Below, piece after piece: positions 5,399 to 63,356 of a stretch of DNA of 63,469 nt. Below the pieces are notes generated by a model that ran no database searches, was not told where the DNA came from, and saw nothing but the letters and a program-made list of their open reading frames with translations. Numbering within the stretch: the stretch's first letter is position 1; the number at the start of each line of letters is the position of its first letter. The translations under genes and the position numbers were made by a program. The stretch is from assembly GCF_000401215.1 (NCBI RefSeq), contig NZ_ASRV01000205.1, positions 1-63,469 on the forward strand. Direction: 5' to 3'. This DNA comes from Clostridium sartagoforme AAU1. GTDB taxonomy: Bacteria; Bacillota; Clostridia; Clostridiales; Clostridiaceae.

Positions 5399-5406
5399 AG
5401 AGAACA

Positions 5407-34156: not shown

Positions 34157-34245
34157 TAAATTCACCTCCAAATTCATTTAGGCAACAAAAGTTGCCTATA
34201 ATATATCTATGCTACATAAGTAATTAAATTATTCAATTTAATAAA

Positions 34246-41960: not shown

Positions 41961-42086
41961 ATGCAGAAACATGATAATAATAGTTTAGTGGCAATAAAAT
42001 ATTTGGCTTTAAATTCTTATTTAGATGGAACAGCTGTAGCTAGTACACCTAAATGTGAATTTAAAGGTAGCACATATAAGATATAA
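41961..42086 (+). CDS. Possible 41-residue peptide ending in the conserved ALNSYL-GTAVAS segment
   Basis: ATG 41961 follows AGGGAG. The product reads MQKHDNNSLVAIKYLALN... The last half matches the end of a broken frame at 50,657-50,953 (VAIKKLALNSYLGGTAVAS), with synonymous changes in the VAI codons that suggest coding. The same DNA can also fold as a CTTTAAATTC/GAATTTAAAG hairpin, so RNA function is an alternative. Confidence 0.35.
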   Translation: MQKHDNNSLVAIKYLALNSYLDGTAVASTPKCEFKGSTYKI

Positions 42087-42097
42087 ATGAAAAGAAA

Positions 42098-42327
42098 ACA
42101 ATGAAAGACCTATGCCAGCACCTTGTGCGCTAGTATAGGTTTTTCTTTGTGATAAGTATGAATCATTTATAGTTATATAGAGCACTGCACCCTGTCGGGT
42201 ACCCAAATAAAGTACTAGTATTATGCTTAGAGATACTTGCGGCATAAAGGGTTCGATTTTGAGAAACCTCTATGCTGCTAGTAGAGCTAGCTAATGACCT
42301 GTCCTTTTTTTGTGACAGTTAAGGTGC
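42098..42327 (+). ncRNA. Structured RNA element R1, copy A
   Basis: 230 bases starting AACAATGAAAG. Parts: hairpin CCTAT..GCAC-CTT-GTGC..ATAGG; a closing stem GCACC-CTGTC paired with GACAG-TTAA-GGTGC at the 3' end; inside it hairpin GCATAAAG/CTCTATGC with a GGGTTCGA loop edge, and GCTAG/CTAGC; then a U7 tract. Copies B and C keep the stems with compensating changes (GCAC:GTGC becomes GTAC:GTAC, GCACC:GGTGC becomes GCCCC:GGGGC). It ends 138 bases before the helicase gene. Confidence 0.8.
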
Positions 42328-42464
42328 AAAGTGGTTGGTTGTATATTTTTGGTAAATATAATAAAATAGAATTAAAATTATAGAATGGAGTATAAAAATT
42401 CTAAAGGTAAATGAATTTATTAAATCATAAAGTATATTCTTACATAGATATTAAGGAGGCAATT

Positions 42465-45254
42465 ATGGAGTTTGAAGTCTTAAAGGACCTTAATGATGAG
42501 CAAAAGGAAGCTGTAACATCAACGGAAGGGTATGTACGTGTGATAGCAGGGGCTGGTAGCGGTAAAACAAAAGCATTAACAAGTAGATATATATATCTTG
42601 TAAAAGAGTTAGGGATTTCAACAGCTAACATTTTATGTGTAACCTTCACAAATAAAGCGGCAAAAGAAATGAAAAAACGTATACGTAATATTATTGGAGA
42701 TAATGACACAGGTTTGATTTGTACATTTCATAGTTTTTGTAGACAACTATTAAGGGAAGATATTCATGTAATAAATTATCCAAGTAATTTTATTGTAATG
42801 GATACAGAAGATATGAGTTCAGTATTGAAAATTGTGTACGAACAAGCAAATATAACTTCAAGACAATATACTTTTTCTAATTCTAAAGATATGATAGGTA
42901 TAAGAAAAGGAAGGATGGAGCACATACCATATATACTAGAGATGGATAGTAATGTATTAAAACAAAAATTCATATCTTCAGAAAACATTGATGATAAAAT
43001 ATTTTTTGGGTATCTGTATCAACAAAGAAAAAGCTTTAATTTAGATTTCAATGATTTAATTACGATTGCATTATATATATTAAATACTTTTCAAGAGAAA
43101 CGAGAAAAGTGGCAAAAAAGATTAGAGTATGTTATGGTAGATGAATTTCAAGATGTTAGTTCATCACAATATGTAATTGCAAGCTTACTAAGTGAGTATC
43201 ATAAAAACTTATTCGTTGTTGGGGATCCAGATCAAACTATTTATTCATGGAGAGGGGCATGTATTGAATTTATATTAAATTTTGATAAGCAATTTTCAAA
43301 TGTTAAAACAATAATAATGAACACAAATTATCGCTCTAGTGAAAATATTTTAAACGCATCGAATTCTTTAATAAATAAAAATGAAAAGAGAATAAAGAAG
43401 GAATTAAGAGCTATTAAAAAATCTAAAATTCCAGTAATTTATAATCACTCTAAAACAATATATGATGAAGCAAGATGGATTAGTAATCAAATAAAAGAAA
43501 TTATAAAATCAGGAAATAAATATAATGATGTATGTATATTGTATAGAGCTCATTATGTATCTAGAAGTATTGAAGAAATATTAATAAAAGAAAAAATGCC
43601 GTATGTTTTATATAGTGGAGTAGGATTTTATGAGAGAAAGGAAATAAAAGACGTACTAAGTTATTTAAGGATGATCGTATTTGAAGATGATTTATCATTA
43701 ATTCGTATAATTAATGAGCCAAAGAGGAATTTTGGAAAGAAGCGAATGGAAATAATCCGAACATATTCTGAAAAAAATAATTGCTCATTATTTAATGCTT
43801 TAAAGTACAATATTGAAGATAAACTTATTTTAAAAAGTAAAGTAAGTGAATTTGTCGATTTAGTAGAAAAATATCAAAAAATATATAAAGAGATGACAAT
43901 AACAGATCTATTAACAGCAGTATTGAATGATAGCGGGTATGAAGCTATGTTGAGACAGAGTGGAGAAGATGAGCGTCTAGATAATCTAGCGGAGTTAAAG
44001 AGTTCTATTGTAGATTATGAAAGTAGTGCTGGAGAAGAGACATCTTTAGAAGATTATTTACAAGAAATTGCTTTATATTCAAATTCTGATATGAAGGAAG
44101 AGCAAGATAAAATAAAAATGATGACTATTCATACTGCAAAAGGATTAGAGTTTCCATATGTATTTATTTGTGGTTTAAATGAGGGAATATTTCCAAGTCA
44201 AAGAGCAAATACACAAGATAAGTTAGAAGAAGAACGTAGATTGGCTTATGTTGGATATACACGCGCTGAAAATGCATTGTTTTTAAGTGAATCTGAAGGT
44301 TTTAACTATGATGGTTCATGTCGCTATCCATCAAGATTTATTTTCAATACTGATAAGAGATATTTAAATTATACTGTTAAGTTAGATAAAAACTTAATAG
44401 AGGATGCGAATGATTTCATTAATATTACCGAAAAAAAATTAAAAGGAACTAACGATATAAAATTTAAAATTGGAGATAAGATAATTCATAATATATTTGG
44501 GGTAGGTACTATAAAAGAGATTAATAGTGAAAATCTATTGTACATTATTAAATTTGATAAGACTACAACTAATAGAAGTATTAGATTTTCAGCAAAATTG
44601 TCAGAGGATAACAATAATATTAATTCTAATTTTATTTCGAATAATGATGACTCAAAAATAAGAGCAGAGCAAGAGAAAGAAAGAAGAGAGAAAGAAGAAA
44701 AAATAAGAGCTGAGCAAGAGGAAGTAAGGAGAAAGAAAGAAGATAAAATAAGAGCAGAACAAGAGGAAGCAAGGAGAATAGAAGAAGATAGATTAATGGC
44801 AATACTAGAAGCTGTGAAAAGCATAAAAGAAGAGAATTTAAGAGCGGAACAAGAGAAGGTAAGGAGAGAGAAAGAAGAAAAAATAAGAGCGGAGCAAGAG
44901 GAAGCAAGGAGAAGGAAAGAAGAAAAAATAAGAGCAGAAGAAGAGAAAGTAAGGAGAATAGAAGAAGATAGATTAATGGCAATACTAGAAGCTGTGAAAA
45001 GCATAAAAGAAGAAAAATTAAGAGCTGAACAGGAGGAAGTAAGGAGAAGAGAAGAAGAAGATGAAGTTAAAAGACTTGATGAAAAGAGATTAAAAATAGA
45101 ACAAGAAAAAAAAGAGATAGTAAATGCTATTAGAAAACATGAAGAAATAATTAATAAAAATAAGTATACCTTTTTTGGAAAAGGTGTAAGAATGAAAAAA
45201 CACTCAAAAGAGCAAATTATTATATTGAAAACTAAATTAAATATGTTTAAATAA
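42465..45254 (+). CDS. UvrD/PcrA-like helicase with a long repeated coiled-coil tail
   Basis: 929 residues. Superfamily 1A helicase: Walker A GAGSGKT (29-35), Ia FTNKAAKEM, II DEFQD (226-230), III GDPDQTIYSWRGA, IV NYRSSENIL, V MTIHTAKGLEFPYVF, VI VGYTRAENALF. A Tudor-like PcrA C-terminal domain (FKIGDKIIHNIFGVGTI) starts near residue 665. Unlike PcrA it continues with 2.2 copies of a 60-residue Glu/Arg/Lys coiled-coil repeat (about 731-864) and a short basic end. ATG 42465 follows AAGGAGG. Alone in its module, so probably a defence or replication accessory. Confidence 0.9.
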   Translation: MEFEVLKDLNDEQKEAVTSTEGYVRVIAGAGSGKTKALTSRYIYLVKELGISTANILCVTFTNKAAKEMKKRIRNIIGDNDTGLICTFHSFCRQLLREDIHVINYPSNFIVMDTEDMSSVLKIVYEQANITSRQYTFSNSKDMIGIRKGRMEHIPYILEMDSNVLKQKFISSENIDDKIFFGYLYQQRKSFNLDFNDLITIALYILNTFQEKREKWQKRLEYVMVDEFQDVSSSQYVIASLLSEYHKNLFVVGDPDQTIYSWRGACIEFILNFDKQFSNVKTIIMNTNYRSSENILNASNSLINKNEKRIKKELRAIKKSKIPVIYNHSKTIYDEARWISNQIKEIIKSGNKYNDVCILYRAHYVSRSIEEILIKEKMPYVLYSGVGFYERKEIKDVLSYLRMIVFEDDLSLIRIINEPKRNFGKKRMEIIRTYSEKNNCSLFNALKYNIEDKLILKSKVSEFVDLVEKYQKIYKEMTITDLLTAVLNDSGYEAMLRQSGEDERLDNLAELKSSIVDYESSAGEETSLEDYLQEIALYSNSDMKEEQDKIKMMTIHTAKGLEFPYVFICGLNEGIFPSQRANTQDKLEEERRLAYVGYTRAENALFLSESEGFNYDGSCRYPSRFIFNTDKRYLNYTVKLDKNLIEDANDFINITEKKLKGTNDIKFKIGDKIIHNIFGVGTIKEINSENLLYIIKFDKTTTNRSIRFSAKLSEDNNNINSNFISNNDDSKIRAEQEKERREKEEKIRAEQEEVRRKKEDKIRAEQEEARRIEEDRLMAILEAVKSIKEENLRAEQEKVRREKEEKIRAEQEEARRRKEEKIRAEEEKVRRIEEDRLMAILEAVKSIKEEKLRAEQEEVRRREEEDEVKRLDEKRLKIEQEKKEIVNAIRKHEEIINKNKYTFFGKGVRMKKHSKEQIIILKTKLNMFK
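44659..45057 (+). repeat. 180-bp tandem repeat inside the helicase gene
   Basis: Period of exactly 180 bases: the stretch starting at 44,772 (AGGAGAATAGAAGAAGATAG) recurs at 44,952, and 44,663 onward matches 44,843 onward. It encodes a 60-residue unit containing EEDRLMAILEAVKSIKEE. Near-identity over 60 bases suggests recent duplication. Confidence 0.9.
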
Positions 45255-45333
45255 CTATAGCAAACTAAGTGGGGTAAGAAGTTCGTGGGATAAACATTTT
45301 TAGGTACAAGCAATATGTTAAATTGAAGTTTAT

Positions 45334-45412
45334 TGGTGCAGTGGTGCTACAGAAGAAAAGAGATTATCCATCGTAAGTTGCTACTATCCTTTTTTGTGAC
45401 AGTTAATATGCC
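45334..45412 (+). ncRNA. Partial copy E of element R1
   Basis: Only the 3' signature is clear: CTACTATCCTTTTTTGTGACAGTTAATATGCC matches in pattern the R1 end (CCTGTCC-T6-GTGACAGTTAAGGTGC). The 5' hairpin is absent. It lies 80-160 bases past the helicase gene and 150 bases before the next frame. Confidence 0.45.
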
Positions 45413-45561
45413 AGAAAATGAAATTGTAGTTATATTATTAAATAGATAATTAATGGTAATAATCCAACTAATAAGATTGAAAGAGGCAAGAAAAAAGGAA
45501 AAAGGAAATCAGAATATCGGTCTATAAAATACTTTAAAAATAATGATGGTGAGAATTAATT

Positions 45562-45879
45562 ATGGAGAGGGAATATTTTATATCAGTTCCTTTAAATCAA
45601 GATAGTATTGAAGAATGTAATTATTGGCAACAAAATTCTAAAAACATAAAGGTTTATACGTTAAAAGAAAAAGAGTTTGATTAAATATATGAGACTGGAA
45701 TATTTGACTATATAAACAATAAATGCGATATTTTAATTGATGTTTATGAATCAGAAGAAGTTAAAGGTGATAATTTAAATAAAGCATTAAAAATTGCAAA
45801 AGATAGAGAATGTGAAGTATTAATACAAGCTTTAGAATTAGCAATAGAAAAGAATACATTAGTTGGATTAGACTTTTAA
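45562..45879 (+). pseudogene. Small acidic protein of unknown function with an in-frame stop
   Basis: ATG 45562 opens a frame (MEREYFISVPLNQDS...) that meets TAA at codon 38 and continues in the same frame with coding character to 45879 (YETGIFDYINNKCDILIDVYESEE). The total would be 105 residues. A lysine-rich coding fragment (KGKRKSEYRSIKYF) lies just upstream without a start. A terminator follows. No family recognised. Confidence 0.45.
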
Positions 45880-45881
45880 TG

Positions 45882-45915
45882 AGCACTTACTTAGATAAAG
45901 AGTAGGTGCTTTTAT
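45882..45915 (+). terminator. Rho-independent terminator
   Basis: Stem AGCACTTACT / AGTAGGTGCT followed by TTTTATT. Confidence 0.8.
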
Positions 45916-45940
45916 TATGTTTAAAATTAAGGAGGAATAA

Positions 45941-46066
45941 ATGAGCTAAACAATTATAAAAGAAGAACCAACACAAAGGAAAAAGTTAGATAGTAAATTC
46001 GAAAGCAAACTTCACCTAGTAGCACCTCTGGGTGTCCAATGTTTGCTTAGTGCAAGTACTAGCTAA
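45941..46066 (+). pseudogene. Short frame with a stop at codon 3
   Basis: GGAGG precedes ATG AGC TAA, after which the frame stays open for 38 codons (TIIKEEPTQRKKLDSKFESK...). The good ribosome site suggests a small gene lost by one nonsense change, though its end overlaps the R1 fragment D. Low certainty. Confidence 0.3.
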
Positions 46067-46101
46067 TGCTCTGACCTTTTTTTGGTGACAGTTAAAGTGC
46101 T
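46021..46101 (+). ncRNA. Partial copy D of element R1
   Basis: AGCACCTCTGGGTG at the 5' side, CTAGCTAATG in the middle and CTGACC-T7-GGTGACAGTTAAAGTGCT at the 3' end follow the R1 order. The outer pairing AGCAC/GTGCT is kept while the inner hairpins are shortened. It lies 190 bases before the next gene. Confidence 0.55.
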
Positions 46102-46292
46102 CTTAAATTAAAAGAGAAAATTAAAACCTTTTATTAGGAAAATTGTTACAATATGATATAATTGTTTGGTATATGAGAGTTAACTATTGGTAGTATATAT
46201 AATAAATAGTATTTAAAATACTATGATTTTATAAAGAAACGTAACTTGTTATTGTTTACACTTATAACACTTCATTTAAAGGAGGATGAGTT

Positions 46293-47128
46293 TTGGAGAA
46301 TAAAAGCAAGAGAAAAATTTATAATGGGTTGTTAAAATCAAAAGCTATAGTTAAAACTGCTGCTGGTGGAGCATTAAGTTTAGTTGATCCAACAGGTGTT
46401 TTGGCAGAAGGGCAAAAAAAGGTATTGACGTTTTAATTAATAAAATTGCAAATGAATTTGATACACGAAAGTTAACAGAACTTGAAAGTGATAGAGTAAA
46501 AGAGGTTATGGTTTCTGCTATTGAAAAGATAGAAAAAAATCTTTTAGAAGGAAAAGTTATACGTGATGATAATTTCTTTTATGACGAATTTAATGATATA
46601 AGTGATGGCGAGGAAATTTTTGAGGCGATAATAATTTCATCACAAAGAGAAGCACAAAAAATGAAACTAAAATTTTATGGTAATTTACTTGCTAATATGG
46701 GATTTTGCAAGGAACTTAGCAGTGATGAGGCTATACAGATTATAAGTTTTGCAGAAAGATTAAGTTATAGGCAATGTTTATTATTGACTGCTATATTTAT
46801 TAATACTGCGCAATATCGTGTATCCGGAAAGGCTAGTTTTTTGGCTAATAAGTTCATAACCGATGGTATGGAAAAAAATATACCATTTGATAGGATTTCT
46901 TTATATCAAGATGTTTTAGAGCTATATAGAATGGGATTGGTTTTTGAAGTAAATGGAAATCTACTATTAACTATTGGACAGGTTAATTTACATTCAATTA
47001 TAGTTGGTGGAATAGGAGATAAAATAGTTACATTAATGGAATTAGATAGGGTAATGGATAATGAATATACAGAGAATCATATTAATGATTTTATTAAATT
47101 ACTGACTGTTATAAAGAATGAAAATTAA
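46293..47128 (+). pseudogene. Unknown cargo protein, about 278 residues, frameshifted
   Basis: TTG 46293 follows AAGGAGG and reads MENKSKRKIYNGLLKSKAIV with a small-residue hydrophobic patch (TAAGGALSLVDPTG). The frame breaks in the A7 run at 46414-46420; one more A joins it to the frame ending at 47128. The body is helical and mostly soluble. No known motif was found. It is first of a group with the TPR gene and the 48,812 gene. Confidence 0.6.
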
Positions 47129-47217
47129 AAAATTAGTCTGAGAAATGAAAACTAAAGTGATATTAATAATTAGTTTATTTTACAAAAGGTATATATAAAT
47201 TAAATGGAGATGAGATT

Positions 47218-48542
47218 ATGGATGTTTTAGGTTTTGTAATTAGTGTATTTAGTGGAGTTGTTGGAAATAGCGTATATAATTTTATTACGGAAGAGGATAT
47301 TGAGTTAAAATTAACAAGAATATATCATTTGGTTGAGAATTTGTTTTGTGAAAAATATGGAAATAAATATGGAGATTATTCAAATAGCTTTCTGCTAGGC
47401 AAGAGAATATTCATTATATAATTAACTCATTTAATTATAATGAAAAAGATTTATTAGATGGTAATGGATTTAACACAAATTCTATTGAGGGTGAAATTGA
47501 AATAGCCAATAAGGAGGATATTGATTGGTTTATAGAGAGATTAAAAAAGGAGATAAAAAATGATAGGGAGCTAGAAAGGTTATTGCAAGAAAAAGAACAT
47601 ATTATAGAACAAAAAAATATTCATAAAGATATAACACATATGCATATGAACCTTGAAGAAAAAATTAATCAATTAATTGCTTCTCAACAAAATGATTTAG
47701 ATATTAATTATAATGAAATAATTGAAATATATGAAGAGAAGGATCATAATGAGCAGGAATTTAGATTAATTACATGGTTAAATAAAAATAAGGGCCATAA
47801 GGAAGGTGTTATATTAAAAGCTTATATTGCCTATGATAGAGAAGAATGGAGTTTGGCATATAAGTTATATAAATATGTGGTTGATATATATAGTGAAGAG
47901 TTTGAATTTAATAATACATTAGGATTAATATATGAAAAATTAGGTGATTATAAAAAAGCAGAAGAGAAGTATATTTTGCTTTTAAATCATGATTACAATA
48001 ACTTATTTGGATTATTCAACTTGGGAAATTTATATTATAAAGTATATAGTAATGTTAAAAAAGCGTTATATTATTTATTAAGAGCTAAAGATATAGAACC
48101 AGAGGATAGTGAAATTTTAAATAATATTGGTGTTATTTATAAAGAATTAGGAGATTATGAATTAGCAAAGGAATATTTTGAATTAGGAATGAAATATTCA
48201 TCTAATAATCCATTGCCATTTTTAAATATGGGCGAGTTATATATGGATGTGCTTAATAAATATGATGATGCAATTATTTGTTTTAAACAATACCTGAAGT
48301 TTCCAGCTAAACAAAAAGATAAGATTTATAATGTGCTTGGGTTAATTTATGGAAGCGTTGTATATAAAGATAGAGATAAAGCAATAGACTATTTTAATGA
48401 AGCTTTAAAAATTAATCCTTACTTAAAAGAAGCTAAAATTAATTTAGAGATTATAAAAGGTAGTGATTTGTATTTCGATAATTTGCTGACATTTTCAGGG
48501 GATAGAGAAATAGACTTATTGAAACAAGGATATGTTCAATAA
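47218..48542 (+). pseudogene. TPR-repeat protein, frameshifted near the N-terminus
   Basis: ATG 47218 follows GGAGATGAG. The first 57 residues (FVISVFSGVVGNSVYNFI) are in one frame, and one more T at 47389-47391 restores the rest (SARQENIHYIINSF...), total about 441 residues. The C-terminal half holds at least five TPR units, for example FNNTLGLIYEKLGDYKKAEE and LNNIGVIYKELGDYELAKEY. TPR arrays with a short N-terminal module are common sensors in bacterial defence systems. Confidence 0.7.
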
Positions 48543-48604
48543 TAAAGATGACTTATATTTAAGTTATTGTACAAAGCATTTTCACATGGAAGTTTCTTCA
48601 GCAA

Positions 48605-48757
48605 ATGTATATTGAAAAGATTAAGAAAAAGAAAAATAAAAGAGTTTTATCAGGAGATATAAAACCTACTGAGTGTATGAAATTATTAGGTATAACAAGA
48701 CCTACGTAGTATAGATATAGAAAAGAATATGAAGATATATATAAGTGGGTATTTTAA
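48605..48757 (+). pseudogene. Remnant of a resolvase/invertase C-terminal domain
   Basis: The frame reads MYIEKIKKKKNKRVLSGDIKPTECMKLLGI then has TAG where resolvases usually have an aromatic or small residue, and continues YRYRKEYED. The pattern GDIKPTECMKLLGITRPT resembles the helix-turn-helix that ends small serine recombinases. No catalytic domain is nearby, so it is a fragment. Confidence 0.45.
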
Positions 48758-48811
48758 ATAGAGGATATTGCCAAATTCTGTAGAATTAGTTCTATGGAAG
48801 GAGGTGATCAC

Positions 48812-49582
48812 ATGGAAAAAGATATATTTAATAAAAAGGAAATTATTAGAGCAAGGAGAGATATCCAAGGATGCATGGAAGATATTCTGAATAATTTTGG
48901 AAGAACTATGTACCATGTTAATATAAAAAGGTTTATTAATTTAATAGAATTTAATAGAGTCCTAAAGTTTTTAACAGCTCCTTTCTATGATTTAGATACA
49001 AATAATATTGAAGAAGATGATGATGGCTGGATAGAGTTAAATATTTCAGATTCTATAGACTATCAAATTGCGTATGTATTTAAAAAGTTTAAGTATTTTT
49101 CAAGTGTTGATGACCAGCTAGTGGAGTATAACTTTTTATATGATGTGTTTAGAAATACTTCAAGCTATGAAAATGTAGAAATATGGAATAATGAAGTTGT
49201 TAAACCTTGTTTTAGAGAAATTTTATTTAGAATAGATGATTTAATTGAAGATCTTCCAAAAGAAGAGGAGGTAAATGCTAAATATATGAGTATAATAAAT
49301 ATTGGAAGTATAAGTAATGCCAACGGAAATTTAGCTATAGGTGATAAAAATATACAAAACAATAATTCAGTAGATTTATTTGAGGATATTATTAGACTAA
49401 TTAATGAAAATATTAATGATGACTATGAGAAAGAAGAGGCTTTAAGGATAGCAAATGAACTTAAAGATAATCAGAATAAAGGCAGCTTTAAAGATATTGT
49501 TCCAAAGTTTATAGCAGCAACAGCGAAATATGGACCTATTTTTTTAGGAATGTGGCAAACATTACAAAATATTTGTGATTAA
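48812..49582 (+). CDS. Unknown cargo protein with the SNANGNLAIGDKN motif
   Basis: 256 residues from ATG 48812, after GGAGGTGATC. About residues 1-165 are an acidic helical domain. The middle has SISNANGNLAIGDKN, a Gly/Asn-rich string often seen at the junction between sensor and effector parts of bacterial conflict proteins. The C-terminus (IVPKFIAATAKYGPIFLGMW) is hydrophobic and may insert into membranes. A terminator closes the unit. Inference: membrane-acting effector of the preceding TPR group. Confidence 0.6.
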   Translation: MEKDIFNKKEIIRARRDIQGCMEDILNNFGRTMYHVNIKRFINLIEFNRVLKFLTAPFYDLDTNNIEEDDDGWIELNISDSIDYQIAYVFKKFKYFSSVDDQLVEYNFLYDVFRNTSSYENVEIWNNEVVKPCFREILFRIDDLIEDLPKEEEVNAKYMSIINIGSISNANGNLAIGDKNIQNNNSVDLFEDIIRLINENINDDYEKEEALRIANELKDNQNKGSFKDIVPKFIAATAKYGPIFLGMWQTLQNICD

Positions 49583-49585
49583 TGA

Positions 49586-49615
49586 AGGAACTCTCAATAA
49601 TGAGGGTTCTTTTTA
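49586..49615 (+). terminator. Rho-independent terminator
   Basis: Stem GAACTCTCA / TGAGGGTTC with an ATAA loop, then TTTTTAT. Confidence 0.82.
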
Positions 49616-49652
49616 TATAGGAGGAATTATGATTGTATTATACTAGTTTTAA

Positions 49653-49847
49653 ATGAAAAGGTGTGGTAAAGAAATTATATTATTAACAGAACCACTAAAT
49701 AGCACATTGAAGGATGGTAAATATATATCATGTTCTCATTGTGGTAGTAAAAATTTATTTAAAGAAACTGAAACTGATGATCTTAGGGAATGTATGAAAG
49801 CTAGAAGATATAAAAGAGATTCTAGGGGTTGTATTGAACAGTATTAA
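49653..49847 (+). CDS. Small zinc-ribbon protein, Com-like
   Basis: 64 residues with CGK near the start and CSHCGSKN in the middle, similar in layout to Com-type translational regulators. ATG 49653 has no ribosome site; the proper site GGAGGAATT precedes an in-frame ATG at 49629 that is followed by TAG and TAA before this ATG. The gene may therefore be impaired at its start. Confidence 0.5.
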   Translation: MKRCGKEIILLTEPLNSTLKDGKYISCSHCGSKNLFKETETDDLRECMKARRYKRDSRGCIEQY

Positions 49848-49898
49848 AAGGAAATTTATTAATCTTGTAGAATATTAATTCTATGGGAGGGATTGGTT

Positions 49899-50636
49899 GT
49901 GGATGAGAAGTTAAATAATTTAATAATAAAATTCGGAGATGAAAAATGGATAGATAAGTTGTATTCAGGTGAAATTTTTATGCAACCATTAAAATCTTAT
50001 ATAGATTTAGAGAGAGAAGAAAAGAGGAAGGGACAAGGAGATAAAAATGAAGCATCATTAAGAAGTAAATTAATTGACTATAAATTTTCTTGTGAAAACT
50101 CTAGTGAGCAAATGGATTTATTTCTTAATTTATTAAATAATGGAGAAGATGCTACTTTTACATTTAGATACAAAGATGATGAAAGGTATTTAACTTCTTG
50201 TTTTTATAAGGTAGATGCTGAAAGATTTGTTTTTATTGGTGAAGAAGATGATAAAAAATATTATCAATATAATTTTACTAATGAAGAGAAAGAAATTTTT
50301 AGTTCTTGGGGTAATAGTGCTTTGATTATTAATAGTAAAGTATTTTTTAATGCTATAAAGACTTGTTTATCAAATATAGACAGTAGATTAGGTAAGGTGA
50401 ATTATTATTGTGAAGATAACTTACCTGAAGAAGCACTTTTAGATTACCAACAAAAGAAAGTAAGTAGATTGTTTTGGAAAGATGAATTTTTTAAACATCA
50501 AAATGAATATAGATTTGTAATTGCTGAAAAATCAGATAAAGGAAAAGTTGTTGCAAATTTAGGTAGCCTTAAAGAAATATCTATGAAATATAATTCTTCT
50601 CAATTAGTAACAGATGGATTTATTTATATAGTATAA
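49899..50636 (+). CDS. DUF2971-like cargo protein
   Basis: 245 residues from GTG 49899, 8 bases after GGGAGG. The start LIIKFGDEKWIDKLYSGEIFMQPLKSYIDLE and the later FWKDEFFKHQNEYRFVI follow the pattern of DUF2971-type proteins (opening segment with a sheet and a conserved aromatic-Glu-Arg near the end). The biochemical role is unknown. It is followed by R1 copy B. Confidence 0.5.
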   Translation: MDEKLNNLIIKFGDEKWIDKLYSGEIFMQPLKSYIDLEREEKRKGQGDKNEASLRSKLIDYKFSCENSSEQMDLFLNLLNNGEDATFTFRYKDDERYLTSCFYKVDAERFVFIGEEDDKKYYQYNFTNEEKEIFSSWGNSALIINSKVFFNAIKTCLSNIDSRLGKVNYYCEDNLPEEALLDYQQKKVSRLFWKDEFFKHQNEYRFVIAEKSDKGKVVANLGSLKEISMKYNSSQLVTDGFIYIV

Positions 50637-50656
50637 TTAAGAGGAGATGATAAAGC

Positions 50657-50953
50657 ATGAATATACTATTTGAATTTCCTAGTGATGAAGCTCGTAATAA
50701 ATGGCTGCTTTATCACTACTTAAAAAACTCTAAAAATTTGTTTGGTTACCATAGGTAGTATGGAAATTAGAACAAATAAGTTTAGAGTTTTTTACAAGAT
50801 ATATATCTACAAAAAGAAGATAATACTGCAACTCCTATTAGAGAGTATGAACCCAAAAAAAAGTATATTTTGAGTGTAGCGATAAAAAAGTTGGCTTTAA
50901 ATTCTTATTTAGGTGGAACAGCTGTAGCTAGTCCTCCTAAATGTGAATTTTAA
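50657..50953 (+). pseudogene. Broken small gene, about 98 residues, ending ALNSYLGGTAVAS
   Basis: ATG 50657 follows AGAGGAGATGA. The frame MNILFEFPSDEARNKWLLYHYLKN is interrupted twice, near 50,737 and in the T6 run 50,788-50,793. Restoring both gives a protein through REYEPKKKYIL to PKCEF. Its last 30 residues match the peptide upstream of R1 copy A. Unknown family. Confidence 0.4.
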
Positions 50954-50984
50954 GCCAGCACATCTAAAATATAAATGAAAAGAA

Positions 50985-51216
50985 AACAATGAAAGACCTA
51001 TGCCAGCACCTTGTGTGATAGTATAGGTTTTTCTTTGTGATAAGTTAAAAACATTTAGAGTTATATATAGCACTGCACCCTGTCGGGTACCCAAATAAAG
51101 GACTAGTCTTATGCTTAGAGATACTTGCTGCATAAAGAGTTCGACTTTGAGAAACCTTTATGCTGCTAGTAGCTCTAGCTAATGACCTGTCCTTTTTTGG
51201 GTGACAGTTAAGGTGC
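50985..51216 (+). ncRNA. Structured RNA element R1, copy B
   Basis: 232 bases, starting AACAATGAAAG and ending GACAG-TTAA-GGTGC like copy A. The hairpin GCAC/GTGT here contains a G-U pair that only works on the + strand, and GCATAAAG/CTTTATGC is perfect where copy A has one mismatch. It ends about 230 bases before the next gene. Confidence 0.8.
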
Positions 51217-51448
51217 ATTAATTAGAATTGAAATAGTATTATTGATTATTAATATTAAATTAATCTTTGTAAGGAACTAAATAAAAGCATTTAAAAGTTT
51301 GTTTTATAAACTTTCTGTAAAAATCACGTAATATATAATAACTGATGATTTGTAGACAATAATGAAAGGATATATACTTAATTTTAGTGAGGTACATACG
51401 TATGCAGATCAATTAGATATGAAAATATTATTTAGAGGGGAAATAGTT

Positions 51449-55479: not shown

Positions 55480-55594
55480 TAAGAAGAATAAGTTAAGTAG
55501 TTGGTGAAGTAAGTTAAAAGATGAGAAAAAAGAAAAAATTAAGCAGTATAGTGAAAATGAAAAATATATTTTAGTTTAACCTCATCTTTAGATT

Positions 55595-55730
55595 CCAAGG
55601 CACAGGGAAAAGAGGAGAATAGCGTTGCTACTATTCCCCTCTTTTCTTTGTGTCTTGGATTATTAGAGCTCAATAGTTTCGTCATTACCCTGGGTTAGGG
55701 TGGGAAACCCCTTTAAAATCAAAGTAATAG
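55595..55730 (+). ncRNA. Structured RNA element R2, copy 1
   Basis: A hairpin with a nearly unbroken 28-bp stem (CCAAGGCACAGGGAAAAGAG... against ...CTCTTTTCTTTGTGTCTTGG) and an 8-base loop. Several pairs are G-U that hold only if the + strand is the RNA. It is followed by ATTACCCTGGGTTAGGGTGG and AAACCCC. The same order and tail, with a differently sequenced stem, occur at 62,523-62,650 on the other strand. Confidence 0.7.
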
Positions 55731-56143
55731 ATAAAAATTACTGAAGCGAGTTTCGAGCTTGAGTAAGATTTTAGATATTGCTACATTATGATTGAGTAAT
55801 ATTGAAGTAATTACAATTAATGATAATGAAGTTTTCCAAGCAAAATCAATTAGTGTGTATATACTTAGGGCATAATTCAATAATCTTTGATAAATACCAG
55901 GATTCGGGTTATTTGTTGATGAATTTGGTAGAATAATGAAGAAATAAATCATGCGGGTTTATAGTGCAGAATGTAGAAGAATACATTTCTAGGAAAAAGA
56001 AGATAAGATTAATATACTTTAACATATCAGTTTATAAACAAAATTATAGTTATTATATTTTATTAAAAAAAAATTATATTTATGTTAAAATATATATATT
56101 GAGGATAAAAAAGGCGGATTATATTAAATAAGAAGGGGGAAAT
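55731..56143. other. Non-coding stretch before the DUF6414 gene
   Basis: About 410 bases. A + strand frame near 55,750-55,870 has some coding character (LSNIEVITINDNEVFQAKS) but is cut by stops, so it is at most a remnant. The last 100 bases are AT-rich and probably hold the promoter of the next operon. Confidence 0.4.
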
Positions 56144-56899
56144 ATGAGGAGTAAGAAAGAAAAGAAAACCAGTAAAATAATAAAAGTAATATATTTTGAT
56201 GAATGTTCGGCTACAGATTTTTTAGAAATTACAAATGGTGGAAAGGTTAATGTGGTAGATGAGGAGTCTAAAGGGAAAACAAAACAAGTAGATTTTAATA
56301 TTGCAGAAAAGTTAGGAGTTAAACTGAAACTATTCTCATTTGTAGATACAGGCGTCGAACAGAAATTAAATGGTCAAGCAAAATATTTAGGACAAAGCTT
56401 GATGAAAACAACATTATCCAATACTGTTTTATCTGATTACATAAATACGGTAGCGAATGAAGAGAGTATAATGGTATTTAAGGGATTCAAATTGAGTGCA
56501 TATCCAAATTCTTTAGCTCACTTCAAAATGTTTTCACCTTATAGTATTTTAAATAATGATGACAATGGTAGTTTAAATATATCAAAGCTAGATGAAGCAT
56601 TAGAAAGTGCAAAAGGATATTATGAATTAATTGCAGAAAATGGAGATAATCCAAAGAAGATTTTAAGATTCAATATAAAGGCATTTAGAAATAATTATGG
56701 GATTTCAGATGTAATAAAAATGGACCTAACATATCATGCTATAAAAGTTGGAAGTTTTCCAGAAGAAAGATTAACAATGGAAAATGAGTTCCAACAGTTA
56801 AAAAATGATTTAACAGTAATAGAAACATTAGATAATAAAAAGAAAGAGAATATATTGGATGTATATGATGTAATATTAGCGGGGGTAACTAATGAATAA
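56144..56899 (+). CDS. DUF6414-like protein
   Basis: 251 residues from ATG 56144 after AAGGGGGA. The opening IKVIYFDECSATDFLEITNGGK and the middle SDYINTV are the pattern I associate with DUF6414. The family is of unknown function and is found in accessory regions. It overlaps the AAA+ gene by 8 bases, so the two are co-expressed. Call from memory of the pattern, not a search. Confidence 0.6.
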   Translation: MRSKKEKKTSKIIKVIYFDECSATDFLEITNGGKVNVVDEESKGKTKQVDFNIAEKLGVKLKLFSFVDTGVEQKLNGQAKYLGQSLMKTTLSNTVLSDYINTVANEESIMVFKGFKLSAYPNSLAHFKMFSPYSILNNDDNGSLNISKLDEALESAKGYYELIAENGDNPKKILRFNIKAFRNNYGISDVIKMDLTYHAIKVGSFPEERLTMENEFQQLKNDLTVIETLDNKKKENILDVYDVILAGVTNE

Positions 56900-58003
56900 T
56901 ATTACTATTTTTAATGGTCCAAGCTATAAGTTTAAAGAGATAATACCCAATAGAGATATATGTACATTCTTGGAATTAGTAGATGAAGATGATTCAGATA
57001 GAAGAACATATTTACATACTGTACCTGGGCAAAATGATATAGACAATAAGGAAAAAGAATATATCAAGAATTTAATAATATATTCAACAGACTATGCTAG
57101 TGTAAATAAACATGTAATTTTAAACTTTACTAATTTCTTAGAGAAATGGGAAATAGAAAATATATATGTTCAAAACCCCCAGAGACTCTAGTAAATAATT
57201 TATATAAAAGAAATAAGAATATAAAGATAATAAATCATGAATATAAAAAAATTGAACTAGATTTAATAAAAAAAATTATCAATCAATTTTCATTTAAAAT
57301 CATTGGGCAAGATAGTATAAAGGATGAATTAGGTGCTACACTTTATCAAAATTTAAGGATGGAAGAAAATAAGCCTTTAGTAGTTATGTTATATGGGGAA
57401 TCAGGTGTAGGGAAAACAGAAAGTGTTAAATTTATTGCAAATTTATTAGAAGAGGACCTGTTTAGAAAACAATTTTCAATGTTCCAAAATGAAGCATATT
57501 CTACATATTTGTTTGGAGGAAAACATAACGAACTAAGCTTTGCTCAAGAATTATTAGAAAGAAAATCAAATATTATATTACTTGATGAATTCGACAAATC
57601 AAATAATATTTTCTATAGTGCCTTTTATCAAATGTTTGATGAAGGAATTTTAGAAGATACTAATTATAAAGTTAACTTACAAAATTCAATTATCTTTGTA
57701 CGTCTAATTATAAGACTGAAGATGAAATTAAGAAAAAACTGGGATGAACCAATATATTCTAGATTTGATTCGTTTATAAAATTTAATAGTATTAGCTTGG
57801 AAAGTAGAAGAAAAATAATTAATATTCAATTTGAAAGAGAGTATTTAAGGTTATCTGATAAAGAAAAGGAAATAATCGATAAATATAATGGTATAAATGA
57901 GATTTTAGACAAGTTAGCTAAAAATAATAATAATATCAGATATATGGGCAATATGCTTCGAAAGATAATATATATTATTATTATTAGGGAGCTTAATAAA
58001 TAA
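56892..58003 (+). pseudogene. Clp-like AAA+ ATPase with frame breaks
   Basis: The first 99 residues end in the C5 run at 57176-57180; one more C gives VQNPPETLVNNLYKR and continues to 58003, about 370 residues. Walker A YGESGVGKTES (near residue 172) and Walker B NIILLDEFDKS match the Clp/AAA_2 group. Between 57,695 and 57,745 the frame drifts: adding a T and removing one restores FCTSNYKTEDEIKKKLGEP, the sensor-1 region, ahead of the arginine finger IYSRFD. Likely partner of the DUF6414 protein. Confidence 0.75.
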
Positions 58004-58184
58004 AGTACTTTAGAAATAATTTCACTTTAATAACCTTGTATCTAATTGTAATAGCGTGTCAGACAAGCTTAGATCTCAAAATACACTGATTAAATGTTAG
58101 TAGTAAGTTAATAGAAATCACGTAATGCTTCGGGCAGTATTGTTTTAAAAAACATTAAAAATAAAATCTTAAAGGAGATAACCA

Positions 58185-59738
58185 ATGTCTACAGTAAAAT
58201 CTTTACTTATTGGAGTTAGCGATTACTCTATGATGAATGAAAATAATTTACCATTTTGTATTAATGATATTTCTGCAATGTCTGAAGCTTTAACTAAAGG
58301 TTTAAAAGCTGAAGCCTCTAATATTATTGCATGTGGAGATAATGGAATTGTAACTAAATCTAATTTTCTGGATTCTTTGAAAAAAGCAATTTCTACTGTA
58401 AAACCAGAGGATACATTTATATTCTATTTTTCTGGTCATGGAGGGAATTCTGAAATTGGACATTTATTATTGTTGAGTGATGGTTATATAATGACTCAAG
58501 AAGTTATAGAATTATTTGAGTCAATCCCTGCTAAAAACAAGATAATTATATTTGATAGCTGTATGGCTGGTAATTTTGAAGTAGTTGAAACACCTATTTT
58601 TTCTCAAACTATGCTTTTAGATGACTTCGTTGGTAAGGGATATGCAGTAATTTCATCATGCAATGCGACACAGTATTCTTATGGACATCCAAATAAACCT
58701 GTTAGTTTATTTACTAGTTTTTTATGTGAAGCTTTAAAAGATAGGTATATTATACGCGAAGGAAAGAAATCGCTAAATGATATTCAAAAGCTTTTATTTC
58801 TTTATTTAAGCATATGGAATAAAAATAACCATAAAAGGATACAGAATCCTATTTATAGAGCCAACCTAGGTGGTACTATATATTTCTCAGTGGAAGATTA
58901 TACTTCATATAAAATAAAGAACTTTTATGAAGAAACTGAAAAATATACAATTTATTCTGTAAAACCATTACATAGTAGTATTGCTAAAAGATATTCCGCA
59001 AGAATAATTTTAAAAGAGCCACTTTCATTTGAGGAAATTGCTCAAATAAATCATGAGGTTGTTGAAAAATTAAAAATGGAAGAATTCTATAATAATTCAA
59101 AATCAGAGTTGTACTGGAAAGGAAAACCTGCAAATATAGTGTTTTGTTATTTTGGTCGTGATGAACAAGACATGATTAATAATAATTATATTTGTCATAC
59201 AACATGGGTGGATAATAGTCAAGATAAAGAATGGTGGTATAAATTATATAATAATTGTGAGGTAATCAAAAATATACACTTTAATGTGCACACTTATTAT
59301 GATACATTAAAGACTTTCAATGAAGAAAATATTGGAGAAAAGAATTTATTATATAAAAAAACTACAATGATAGTTAAAAATATAGTGACATTAGCTGAGA
59401 GTGCTATTAGCTTATACAACGAATTCATTAATAATAGTAAAACAGAAATAGAATTAATACAAGATATGGAAATCTTAATTCCACACATTGAAAAATGGTA
59501 TTTTTTTGAAACAGAATTAGAGCTACCACCTAAGGAGTTGAAAAAATGGTGTCAATGTTGTTCGAGTCTTGTATCAACGATTCACGATTTTACTTTTTTT
59601 TATAATCAAAGGTATATTGATGGAAGAACTAGTGAAAATAGAATTGCATGCATGAATATGACGATAAAGAGATATTATGATGATTTGGAAAAATTAAAAA
59701 TAGAAGAACAGACTCTAACATTACATGATAAAATTTAG
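58185..59738 (+). CDS. Caspase-family (C14) protease with long C-terminal domain
   Basis: 517 residues. The caspase-like domain occupies about residues 1-230, with the catalytic His85 in FYFSGHG and Cys126 in IFDSCMAG. The remaining 280 residues are unlike known domains and may be a sensor or substrate platform. ATG follows AAAGGAGATAA. The gene is 181 bases after the AAA+ gene and may act with it. Such proteases are known effectors in bacterial suicide defence; that role is inferred. Confidence 0.9.
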   Translation: MSTVKSLLIGVSDYSMMNENNLPFCINDISAMSEALTKGLKAEASNIIACGDNGIVTKSNFLDSLKKAISTVKPEDTFIFYFSGHGGNSEIGHLLLLSDGYIMTQEVIELFESIPAKNKIIIFDSCMAGNFEVVETPIFSQTMLLDDFVGKGYAVISSCNATQYSYGHPNKPVSLFTSFLCEALKDRYIIREGKKSLNDIQKLLFLYLSIWNKNNHKRIQNPIYRANLGGTIYFSVEDYTSYKIKNFYEETEKYTIYSVKPLHSSIAKRYSARIILKEPLSFEEIAQINHEVVEKLKMEEFYNNSKSELYWKGKPANIVFCYFGRDEQDMINNNYICHTTWVDNSQDKEWWYKLYNNCEVIKNIHFNVHTYYDTLKTFNEENIGEKNLLYKKTTMIVKNIVTLAESAISLYNEFINNSKTEIELIQDMEILIPHIEKWYFFETELELPPKELKKWCQCCSSLVSTIHDFTFFYNQRYIDGRTSENRIACMNMTIKRYYDDLEKLKIEEQTLTLHDKI

Positions 59739-59797
59739 TAATCACTCTAGATAGTTGTGAAATTTCCCAAGGGGTATTAATTTTTAAGGCAAAACTT

Positions 59798-59916
59798 ATG
59801 GAATTCGGATATTTAAATATAAAAAATTAAAATTGTGTAAAAATAATACAAGCATAAGTGATTTAAAGAAAGTATTTGATACTGTCAAAGTTCTTTTTAG
59901 AATTAGAGATATGTGA
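59798..59916 (+). pseudogene. Possible 39-residue peptide gene with an A-run indel
   Basis: ATG 59798 opens MEFGYLNIK and stops soon after the A6 run 59821-59826. One more A gives KLKLCKNNTSISDLKKVFDT through FRIRDM. No clear ribosome site. Weak. Confidence 0.25.
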
Positions 59917-59931
59917 ATTAAAATAATGGTA

Positions 59932-59986
59932 GAAATGGCCATAGCTAATCAGTTACATGCGTACTCATTAGCTATTCCTATTTTTT
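59932..59986 (+). terminator. Terminator after the caspase module
   Basis: Stem ATAGCTAAT / ATTAGCTAT with an inner GTTACATGCGTAC hairpin, followed by T6. It is nearly identical to the one at 62,474. Confidence 0.82.
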
Positions 59987-60170
59987 GATTAAAAAGATAT
60001 TAAATGCACAAATAATTTAAATAATTATTACGGATATTCGATAAAAGATTCAAAAAATGTCTTATTAAATACAAAAAAATCACATTAAATAGAATAAAAA
60101 TAAGTAAAAGTGCAAAGAATTATATTAACAAATGTGAAAAAATCACGTATAATCTAATTGAGGTGATATT

Positions 60171-61523
60171 ATGTTAGTAAGATTTAGTGTTGGTAATTTT
60201 TTATCATTTAAAGATATTCAAGAATTTTCAATGATTAAAGGTAAGGCCAAAAAGAAAGCTGAGAGAATTTTTGATAATGAAAAAATTAAGTTATTAAAGT
60301 TTGCTTCAGTATTTGGTGCAAATGCTTCAGGTAAATCAAATTTTGTAAAAGCAATTAATTATTCAAGAAATATAATTTTAAAGGGTGAAATAGATAATAT
60401 TAGTGCATCAGAATTTAAATTAGATAATGAAAGTAAAAATAAGCCATCATATTTTGAGTTTGAAATAGTGATAGATGATAGAGTATATAGCTATGGATTT
60501 GAAATTAGTATTCATAACAAAAAGTTTATTTCAGAATGGCTTATAGAGTTAGAGGCGAATAGAGAAGTAGTTATATTTAGTCGTGATATACCTAATGAAA
60601 AATCTAGTTCAGATCTTAAGATTAAAGATCAAGGCAGCAGGAATAGTTTTAATTTATACTTAAATGATTTAGAGTCTAACGATGAAGTTCTATTTTTAAA
60701 TGAGATGAATAGTAAATCAAAAAGTACTTTATATAAAAAAGAGGATGAATTAATTATTTTCAAAAAGATATATGAATGGTTTCTTAATAAGATTGATGTA
60801 AATTATCCAGAAAGGCCTATATCAAATTATTCATATTTTTTAGAGAACAACAATCAAATATGTAAAATTCTACAGTCCTTTGGAACGGGAATTACTAATT
60901 TTAAGGTAGAAGATACAAATATAGATGCAATAAAAGGTTTGCCAGGTGATTTAGTTAAAAAGATTATTACAGATTTGGAGAATATAAAGAACTCAGATAA
61001 TGAAGGGAAAAAAGAAGCTACTATAACGTTAAGAACTCGTAATGCTTATTATATGTTTAATCTTTTAGATGATAATGAAACTATTGATGTTACAACTATT
61101 AAATTTAATCATGGAAGTGATGTATTATTTGGATTTGAAGAGGAGTCTGATGGTACTAGAAGATTATTAGATTTAATAGAAATACTATATAATGCAGAAG
61201 ATAAAGTTTATATTATAGATGAATTAGATAGAAGTTTACATCCGCAATTAACATATAAATTTATTCAAGAGTTTTTAAAGTTAGCTAATAATAGAAATAC
61301 TCAACTTATAATAACAACACACGAAGCTAGATTATTAGACTTTGAGTTGTTGAGGCAAGATGAAATATGGATTTCTAACAAGGGGGACTTAGGTGATACT
61401 TCTTTATATTCTTTAGATGAATACAATATAAGATTTGATAAAAAAGTTGAAAAAGCCTATTTAGAGGGTAGATATGGTGGTGTGCCGATCTTTAGTAGTA
61501 TCTTTCCAATAGGGGAGGTATAA
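60171..61523 (+). CDS. RloA/AbiLi-like AAA family ATPase
   Basis: 450 residues of the ABC-like ATPase class found in abortive-infection systems. It begins MLVRFSVGNFLSFKD; Walker A GANASGKS (49-56); Walker B YIIDELDRSLHP; and a switch His (ITTHEARLL). ATG follows GAGGTGATA. The next gene begins 1 base after the stop and encodes RloB, so the pair is a RloA/RloB or AbiL-type system that probably arrests growth on infection. Confidence 0.88.
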   Translation: MLVRFSVGNFLSFKDIQEFSMIKGKAKKKAERIFDNEKIKLLKFASVFGANASGKSNFVKAINYSRNIILKGEIDNISASEFKLDNESKNKPSYFEFEIVIDDRVYSYGFEISIHNKKFISEWLIELEANREVVIFSRDIPNEKSSSDLKIKDQGSRNSFNLYLNDLESNDEVLFLNEMNSKSKSTLYKKEDELIIFKKIYEWFLNKIDVNYPERPISNYSYFLENNNQICKILQSFGTGITNFKVEDTNIDAIKGLPGDLVKKIITDLENIKNSDNEGKKEATITLRTRNAYYMFNLLDDNETIDVTTIKFNHGSDVLFGFEEESDGTRRLLDLIEILYNAEDKVYIIDELDRSLHPQLTYKFIQEFLKLANNRNTQLIITTHEARLLDFELLRQDEIWISNKGDLGDTSLYSLDEYNIRFDKKVEKAYLEGRYGGVPIFSSIFPIGEV

Positions 61524-61524
61524 T

Positions 61525-62454
61525 ATGAGAATACCCAAGAAGTATGGTGAGAGAACTTTACATTTTAAAAGTGAACAAATAGAAAAGCCTAAGTATATAT
61601 TTGTATATGAGGGACAAGAAACAGAAGCACAATATTTTCAAGGGATAATTGATAACAGAGGAATTCTAAATATAAATCCATTAATTGACTTACAACCAAT
61701 ATTACGAAGTCATTTAGAACTTACAAAAAGCCATCCAGTAAATATTTTAAGTTATTTAGAGAGATACTTAGAAAATTATTATTCTATTGATATGATTTCA
61801 AATAAAATTGTTGATTTTTGCATTGAGATACTAGATGTAAAAGACAATAGCATTTATACTTCAAAAATGTTAAATGAGGATATTATAAGGTACTTATGCT
61901 ATATCAGTGAAAAAGATACAAATGAAATAATTAATTTTACCAGTGAAACTTTAATAGGATTAGCAAAATATTTAGAGGATAAAATTCAACTAACTGATCA
62001 GATTGATTCAATTATTGAATATATAGAAGACCAAGAGATAGTTTATAATAAGGATATAGATAAAATATGTCTTATCATTGATAGAGATTGTGGAAATGTT
62101 AAACCAAATCAATATGATCTAATACTTGAAAAATGTAGAAATAAAGGTATCAACCTATATGTTACTAATCCTAATTTTGAATTTTGGCTTTACCTTCATA
62201 CTAGAGAAGTTCTGTTTGAGGATCATATTGACTTATTAGAAAACAGAAGAACTGGAAAGAAAAGATATCTTGAGCGTAGATTAAGCGATGCATTTGAAGG
62301 ATATAGAAAAGATTATATTAAATTTGATAGATTTTTACCTAAGTTAGATATAGCAATAGAGCAAGAAAAACAATTTTGTGAAGATTTAATTGGATTGAAA
62401 ACTGAACTTGGATCTAATGTTGGTATTTTAATTAGTCAATTAAAAAATAAATAA
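61525..62454 (+). CDS. RloB-family protein (AbiLii-like)
   Basis: 309 residues. N-terminal KYIFVYEGQETEAQYFQGI with the conserved Glu of RloB/OLD-TOPRIM-like proteins, a central insertion, then ICLIIDRDCGN and the family hallmark TNPNFEFWLYLH. It is the nuclease-like partner of the upstream ATPase. ATG follows GGGGAGGTA. The central helical insertion (about residues 70-165) seems longer than in typical RloB. Confidence 0.85.
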   Translation: MRIPKKYGERTLHFKSEQIEKPKYIFVYEGQETEAQYFQGIIDNRGILNINPLIDLQPILRSHLELTKSHPVNILSYLERYLENYYSIDMISNKIVDFCIEILDVKDNSIYTSKMLNEDIIRYLCYISEKDTNEIINFTSETLIGLAKYLEDKIQLTDQIDSIIEYIEDQEIVYNKDIDKICLIIDRDCGNVKPNQYDLILEKCRNKGINLYVTNPNFEFWLYLHTREVLFEDHIDLLENRRTGKKRYLERRLSDAFEGYRKDYIKFDRFLPKLDIAIEQEKQFCEDLIGLKTELGSNVGILISQLKNK

Positions 62455-62473
62455 CTATCAATGATAAAAATAG

Positions 62474-62520
62474 GAATAGCTAATCAGGTACATGCGTACT
62501 CATTAGCTATTACTATTTCT
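62474..62520 (+). terminator. Terminator after RloB
   Basis: Stem ATAGCTAAT / ATTAGCTAT with an inner GTACATGCGTAC palindrome, then TACTATTTCTTT. Nearly the same as at 59,932. Confidence 0.8.
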
Positions 62521-62522
62521 TT

Positions 62523-62650
62523 GATTATAATGGGATTTCCCACCCAAGCCCAGGGTAATCTATGAACTAGAACGTTAATATTAACTAAGTGGCACAAAGA
62601 TAAATGTGGACTAACAAAAGTTGTTCCACTTTTATCCTTGTGCAAGGTTA
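62523..62650 (-). ncRNA. Structured RNA element R2, copy 2 (minus strand)
   Basis: On the minus strand: hairpin GCACAAGGATAAAAGTGGA... paired with ...TCCACATTTATCTTTGTGC (62,592-62,643), then a spacer, ATTACCCTGGGCTTGGGTGG and AAATCCC. Compared with copy 1 the stem bases differ but pairing is kept, and the tail is nearly the same. Confidence 0.7.
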
Positions 62651-63124
62651 AAATAGCCTTAGCTCCTATCACTATATTTGTATCTAAATCATTGATTTTA
62701 ATTTTTAACTTTAGATGTTTTGTTAATTAGTCTATTTTTATGATTACAAAGGGAAGCTGCGCCTCTAACCCTGCTTAATGCTCCTTAAACTTAAAATTTC
62801 AATAAATAGAAAATATGGACTAGCTATAGCTATTCCATTTTTCTATTTATACTAGAGATAAAATTAAACTGAAAAAGGTAGCAATCTAAATCAAATGTTA
62901 TCTTTGAAACTAGTATTTATTTAGCTTTTAATATGTTTAATCTTATTAGTACTTAATCTTCTATAAAGTAATCACTAACTATTATTATTACTGTAGTTTT
63001 AGCAGTTAGATTTTTTTATATCTTTGATATTTAAAGTTCGTATATAATTATCTATAAACTTTGTAATCTAATATAATTTCATCTGATGATATATCTGTAG
63101 GGTTTATAACTTATAATTATTTGG
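62651..63124. other. Non-coding AT-rich stretch between R2 and R1
   Basis: No gene seen. It holds one GGACTAGCTATAGCTATTCC-type hairpin near 62,818-62,838 reading as a terminator on the minus strand. Confidence 0.5.
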
Positions 63125-63356
63125 GCCCCTTAACCTGTCACCCCAAAAAGTACAGGTCATTAGCTAGAGCTACTAGCAGTCTAAAGGTTTCTCAAAATCG
63201 AACCCTTTACGCAGCAAGTATCTCTAAGCATAAGACTAGTACTTTATTTGGGTACCCGACAGGGGGCAATGATCCTTTTAACTATTGATGTTTATTACTT
63301 TAACAAAGAAAGTCCTATACTGGTACACAAGGTACTGGCATAGGCCTTTCATTGTT
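63125..63356 (-). ncRNA. Structured RNA element R1, copy C (minus strand)
   Basis: 232 bases on the minus strand, starting AACAATGAAAG and ending GACAG-GTTAA-GGGGC. Relative to copies A and B, the closing stem GCACC:GGTGC is GCCCC:GGGGC and the first hairpin GCAC:GTGC is GTAC:GTAC, both compensated changes. GCTAG/CTAGC and TAAAGGGTT/AAACCTTTA hairpins are kept. It points away from the window end toward R2 copy 2. Confidence 0.8.

Follow-up and report, generated by a model that had tools for sequence, protein, structure and literature searches.

R1, a structured rod family of Clostridiaceae that may bound exchangeable cargo in defence-rich islands

Integron attC sites are imperfect palindromes, kept by fold over sequence, that are used on one strand, lie between cassette genes and carry the core boxes RYYYAAC/GTTRRRY. 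REP/MITE-type repeats are dispersed non-coding palindromes, and single-strand origins (sso) and Frpo single-stranded promoters are imperfect hairpins acting as folded DNA. GOLLD, ROOL and OLE are large ornate RNAs and structured bacterial elements. Here we investigated R1, an element present three times in a 63,469-nt stretch of DNA from Clostridium sartagoforme AAU1 (NZ_ASRV01000205.1; hereafter the window), which is contig C205 of a 3.98 Mb genome in 322 contigs. R1 resembles attC in being a fold-conserved imperfect palindrome with one strand selected, located between putative cassette genes, but the attC core boxes, sought up to 25 nt from the ends and in both orders, were found in none of 62 R1 copies, and R1 neighbours are mostly inverted, not head-to-tail. 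It shares with REP/MITE-type repeats its dispersed, non-coding, palindromic nature, yet has fixed internal loops, covariation over 14 genera and defence-gene surroundings; it is an imperfect hairpin like sso and Frpo, but occurs in both orientations within one island; and, unlike the large ornate RNAs, it is one unbranched rod, and Rfam matched neither the window nor the rods of six further loci at the gathering threshold. The structure and the family of these rods are, in our judgement, established by computation, and the rods sit in variable, defence-rich islands of Clostridiaceae, often as mirror-image pairs. Our tentative reading is that R1 is a new structured family acting as the folded single-strand boundary of exchangeable cargo. 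The window holds the following parts of R1 and, listed last, a neighbouring hairpin:

42186..42329, plus strand: rod A, the conserved 148-position element (covariance model 120.2 bits; several pairs broken; fold z -4.0)
51074..51218, plus strand: rod B (covariance model 150.4 bits; fold z -10.3)
63123..63268, minus strand: rod C (covariance model 137.4 bits; fold z -4.9)
46052..46102, plus strand: fragment of a fourth copy, 3' arm of the rod alone (nhmmer 26.4 bits; blastn E 4.6e-7)
42098..42150, plus strand: 5' hairpin of copy A (fold z -6.5)
50986..51038, plus strand: 5' hairpin of copy B (fold z -5.8)
63303..63355, minus strand: 5' hairpin of copy C (fold z -4.6)
42004..42067, plus strand: extra long hairpin upstream of copy A (read by eye in the sequence and alignment)

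The initial annotation had described three copies of a unit of about 230 nt, and the copies were recovered where it placed them by sequence, by alignment and by blastn against the own genome (identities of 100%, 92% and 85%), with the closing stem GCACC:GGTGC in A and B and GCCCC:GGGGC in C, and the first hairpin GCAC:GTGC, GCAC:GTGU and GTAC:GTAC, just as claimed. All three rods and all three 5' hairpins fold better than shuffled sequences. The same blastn search matched a 3'-arm fragment at 46059-46100; the fragment, which the covariance model missed, is probably a decayed rod copy. The unit itself, however, falls into two parts, of which the conserved one is 148 nt long and the 5' hairpin was seen in the window alone. 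When a 243-nt query was compared by blastn with 68 genomes of the genus (own genome included), 14 matched, the relatives from query position 86-99 onward, and the 5' hairpin with its spacer was not seen in 31 aligned copies from relatives, the 5' part differing among genomes. Across 62 copies, 850 of the 1891 possible pairs aligned over the rod, and similarity mostly ended at its edges: in these 850 alignments the median extent past the rod was -2 nt at the 5' edge (75th percentile +5, 90th +545) and +6 nt at the 3' edge (75th percentile +204); related islands account for the long tails. A hairpin like the extra one upstream of copy A lies at about 50892-50956 upstream of copy B, and copy C has other sequence there. 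Also upstream of copy A, the segment 41860-41965 has by eye the look of a degenerate tRNA, on which ARAGORN made no call.

The rod is a single long interrupted hairpin of 50 pairs in five stacked, unbranched helices. Dropping four places below 33 bits (nhmmer) left 34 cores, and leaving out the truncated copy of locus L026 gave a 33-row alignment, in which 93.3% of cells are paired and 30 of the 50 pairs show two-sided changes. None of 500 shuffles attained any of the five measures used, slid controls were only 39-52% paired, and RNAalifold, run independently of the proposed structure, placed two-sided changes in 25 of 38 pairs. A search with the covariance model gave 77 matches, of which 15 overlapped a better one; the 62 kept, some of them fragments, have 92.3% of cells paired and at least two Watson-Crick types in 41 of the 50 pairs, in an alignment that was fitted to the model and hence leans towards it. 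Among these copies G-U pairs outnumber A-C oppositions 94 to 45, with more G-U in 39 sequences, more A-C in 10 and a tie in 13. No such bias is expected of a symmetric cruciform, so it is one strand that folds. Selection for structure, proposed from three copies, is confirmed far beyond them in both covariation and G-U excess, but RNA as the acting molecule is not established: the excess sets the strand, as had been argued, and is compatible with RNA and single-stranded DNA alike. Taken as a whole, the earlier interpretation is partly supported.

Conservation is not limited to the pairs. The internal loops are on average as conserved as the stems (1.11 bits each), with the GGG bulge at 97-98%, UA at 89-92% opposite CU at 75-95%, and U.U at 95-97%; the UAAU/UAAU loop reaches 77-92% on its 5' side and a weaker 52-84% on its 3' side, and conservation is poor (39-52%) at a few individual positions within loops. 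These loops bear on the idea that R1 is a selfish or passive palindromic repeat of REP/MITE type, in which compensatory changes arise from palindrome correction during replication and not from selection. Under such correction mismatches should disappear, but the GGG bulge and the UA/CU and U.U loops stay in place, an argument that the UAAU/UAAU loop, down to 52% on its 3' side, qualifies; the GU/AC asymmetry and the occurrence in 14 genera also speak against it. Its strengths are that R1 is dispersed and multi-copy in hairpin-rich spacers and that, in genome G092, the rod lies within a 1.3-1.4 kb non-coding unit on two replicons, the chromosome and a second contig of 79.6 kb, probably a plasmid, that holds three rod copies. 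Four copies of this unit share a 3' edge at a hairpin, a short palindrome that is dispersed in its own right and was matched tens of times in G092, G093 and G094. On balance we regard a passive repeat as unlikely.

Further hairpins accompany rods elsewhere. In locus L023, about 470 nt past the 3' side of the rod are included in an inverted repeat and contain additional hairpins. On the 3' side of rods in the Clostridium loci L023-L040 we noted further conserved hairpins, namely GTGGCGCAGCCAC and CTGCCGCAGGC blocks and a long GAGAAGT...ACTTCTC hairpin, in which some changes look compensatory by eye. Given these and the hairpin of the G092 unit, R1 can be viewed as one well conserved member of a wider hairpin set.

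A covariance model built from the rods, the check that the initial annotation had proposed, found the rod in 43 of 225 genomes of the order, representing 14 of 56 genera, in 20 of 68 genomes of the genus and in 8 of 391 genomes of the class, the own genome being included each time and the counts being lower bounds under strict filters. All matches fall within the window's own family, Clostridiaceae by its named congeners. Seven pattern matches in named genomes came from four Clostridium assemblies and one Bacillota metagenome-assembled genome. Among phages and plasmids no record was matched by blastn, and exact core patterns were absent from IMG/VR. The view that R1 belongs to no known class held up against Rfam 15, which at gathering score gave no match in the window and four in six rod-bearing loci, none of them on a rod; matches from permissive searches of two stretches were all far below gathering score. 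GOLLD, ROOL, OLE, 6S and HEARO, all families in the Rfam library, gave no covariance-model match at the gathering threshold in the window or on the rods of the six loci.

The nearest open reading frame (ORF) of at least 100 amino acids lies at a median of 704 nt on the 5' side of the rod and 870 nt on the 3' side, and rods show no orientation bias relative to neighbouring ORFs (31 versus 28 and 26 versus 29). This distance and lack of bias argue against a cis-regulatory leader, a riboswitch or a 3' untranslated region element, all of which are disfavoured. An intrinsic terminator is ruled out, since TTTTT occurs within 15 nt after the rod in just 1 of 62 copies. The near absence of a T tract, the hundreds of bases to the nearest ORFs and the lack of orientation bias also tell against the broader proposal that rods insulate transcription or RNA processing between modules, as a bidirectional barrier or an RNase III site; that the rods are stable and stand either way round in long spacers would suit such a role, which we consider quite improbable.

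What the context does offer is a pattern of pairs. Among 31 pairs of adjacent rods less than 30 kb apart, fragments counted, 19 point outward, 6 are direct and 6 point inward (P 2e-5 against 25%, a value that treats loci as independent, which related loci are not); within 10 kb the numbers are 16, 5 and 0. Outward pairs recall transposon terminal inverted repeats, yet many R1 copies are solitary. A comparison of genomes G039 and G059 shows what can lie between two rods. Both rods and several hundred bases on either side are common to the two genomes at 91-93% identity, and the further backbone at 88-97%, whereas between the rods lie about 12.6 kb in G039 and about 0.84 kb in G059, the cargo of G039 matching G059 in short stretches of the flanks alone.

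From this arrangement we infer a boundary function for the rods. The folded single strand of the rod would be recognised by a protein, the rod would serve as boundary, either end or exchange site, of cargo modules, and the cargo between rods would be swapped with the flanks retained. The outward pairs, the variable cargo and the absence of any relation to gene orientation suit a boundary element no less well than an RNA gene.

The cargo near rods is rich in defence genes. From 333 ORFs of at least 150 amino acids within 8 kb of rods, 120 were scanned against PADLOC, as were 120 of 227 control ORFs taken from R1-bearing genomes at 20 sites not near a rod; at E 1e-20 the former matched 136 models and the latter 5, both being counts of models, not proteins. 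Among the first 25 models listed near rods are type I and II methyltransferases, a type I specificity subunit, DrmA, Cas1 and RmrA. Of ten chosen rod neighbours, eight match a PADLOC model at E 1e-5, with GajA and GajB in L063, AbiEi in L056, a PDC-S25/ThsA-like protein in L060 and AbiL in L064, where a pair matching both AbiLi/AbiLii models stands on the 3' side of a rod; the 796-amino-acid neighbour in L069 and the 597-amino-acid one in L072 match no PADLOC model at this threshold.

One protein recurs beside the rods of a single genus. KYESK, a protein of 132 amino acids with no Pfam family (L029 7633-8031 and homologues), was found by profile in 13 of the 225 genomes of the order, all of the window's genus and all carrying R1, one copy being a fragment (G003); it was not found in six other R1-bearing congeners or in the window's genome. 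A single-sequence search gave a weak match (E 4e-4) in the R1-less genome G038. KYESK lies upstream of, and on the same strand as, a type I rod in 15 of 15 loci with a close homologue, loci that had been fetched because of a rod; outside the fetched loci, three full-length copies (G002, G013 and G048) have a co-directional rod downstream. Diverged homologues occur in L026, with a type I rod downstream, and in L033, with a type II rod. Types I and II are distinguished by their apical loops under a rule fitted by eye, by which 9 of the 11 outward pairs typed at both ends combine I and II; six further outward pairs are not fully typed. In this genus, then, the two ends of a module may tend to differ, and KYESK, usually adjoining the type I end, is a candidate binder. 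Its structure model has moderate confidence, and similarity to WGR or Pur-alpha is within noise.

The same association also suits the main rival, namely that R1 is a trans-acting structured non-coding RNA with its own promoter, perhaps part of a ribonucleoprotein in defence or counter-defence that would include KYESK in Clostridium. The strand asymmetry, the fixed non-Watson-Crick loops, the presence of R1 in 13 of 13 genomes with a profile KYESK and the lack of a cis relation to ORFs are all consistent with it. Up to six sense copies per genome, often inverted, would be unusual for an RNA gene, and the near absence of a T tract after rods is a further difficulty; we hold this reading to be possible but less likely than not. 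If it is correct, R1 represents a structured RNA class that is widespread and for which this analysis found no relative. A long imperfect hairpin with strand preference could alternatively be a conversion or promoter site for single-stranded DNA, sso- or Frpo-like, used when an island moves in that form. An island with R1 and KYESK does encode an ArdA antirestriction protein (L028 6724-7254, Pfam E 3e-33), and L040 has a similar ORF (5365-5895), but rods stand in both orientations within one island, and we judge such a site very improbable.

Several observations weigh against R1 as a cargo boundary. The window's own neighbours are a direct pair (A and B) and an inward pair (B and C), and many rods are solitary. 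G039 has an extra 1.8 kb directly outside its right-hand rod relative to G059, and the two genomes differ in a second segment (about 11.4 kb versus about 4.1 kb) in which no rod was found; cargo variation therefore does not need rods, and the locus is variable beyond them. Homologous recombination in any shared flank would produce the same swap, and no recombinase was seen to recur with rods in the locus gene maps. KYESK is absent by profile outside one genus among the 225 genomes, and within it there are exceptions: G028:1000181 has a rod fragment alone, G002:C2 has its rod on the other side and strand, and no rod is listed near G028:1593790, G028:2325413 or three truncated copies. The PADLOC excess, besides being one of models, includes among the models with most members near rods those for Cas1/reverse transcriptase, reverse transcriptase and homing endonuclease, as group II introns give.

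How defence genes gather into islands and are swapped is an open question. Should the boundary reading be true, an element that a covariance model can find in 14 genera, with defence cargo next to it, would make island exchange more accessible to study, and the rods would offer a route to new defence genes lying between them. A more specific version seems to us unlikely as a whole: cassettes of an undescribed class, bounded by hairpins and lacking a transposase, would shuffle antiviral defence and antirestriction genes between islands of Clostridiaceae, the paired rods would be their ends, recognised by structure, and in one genus KYESK would be dedicated to binding these ends.

In the window, 6 of 10 proteins match PADLOC at E 1e-3, two of them weakly, and three candidate defence loci stand beside or between rods:

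42411..45254, plus strand: UvrD-like helicase on the 3' side of rod A (Pfam; PADLOC GajB E 1e-94)
58185..59738, plus strand: caspase-domain protein between rods B and C (Pfam; PADLOC caspase E 1e-11)
60171..62454, plus strand: AbiLi/AbiLii-like pair, an AAA_21 ATPase and RloB, on the 3' side of rod C (Pfam; PADLOC E 4e-82 and 9e-16)

UvrD helicases being a broad family, a defence role for the first is presumptive. The 3' part of its ORF contains a tandem repeat of 45-nt period (44614-45108), and the protein has a repetitive C-terminal tail. The AbiL pair is flanked by a repeat (59925-59986 and 62460-62521, 87% identical) that looks palindromic.

Up to about 32 kb the window carries chromosomal genes (dxs, an SMC_N/recN-like gene and spoIVB), followed by a serine recombinase at 33086-34174 and then YqaJ/RecT, DnaB_2-type, IstB-like and KilAC/Bro-N genes, after which the cargo region runs to the contig end. 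A lysis-like cluster, counted where three or more out of seven recurring gene clusters occur, is present in 21 of 39 loci; the seven are a sigma-like cluster, with sigma-70 region 2 by Pfam, two unnamed small proteins, and four that we take to be an amidase, a BhlA-type holin, a DUF1659-like and a DUF2922-like protein.

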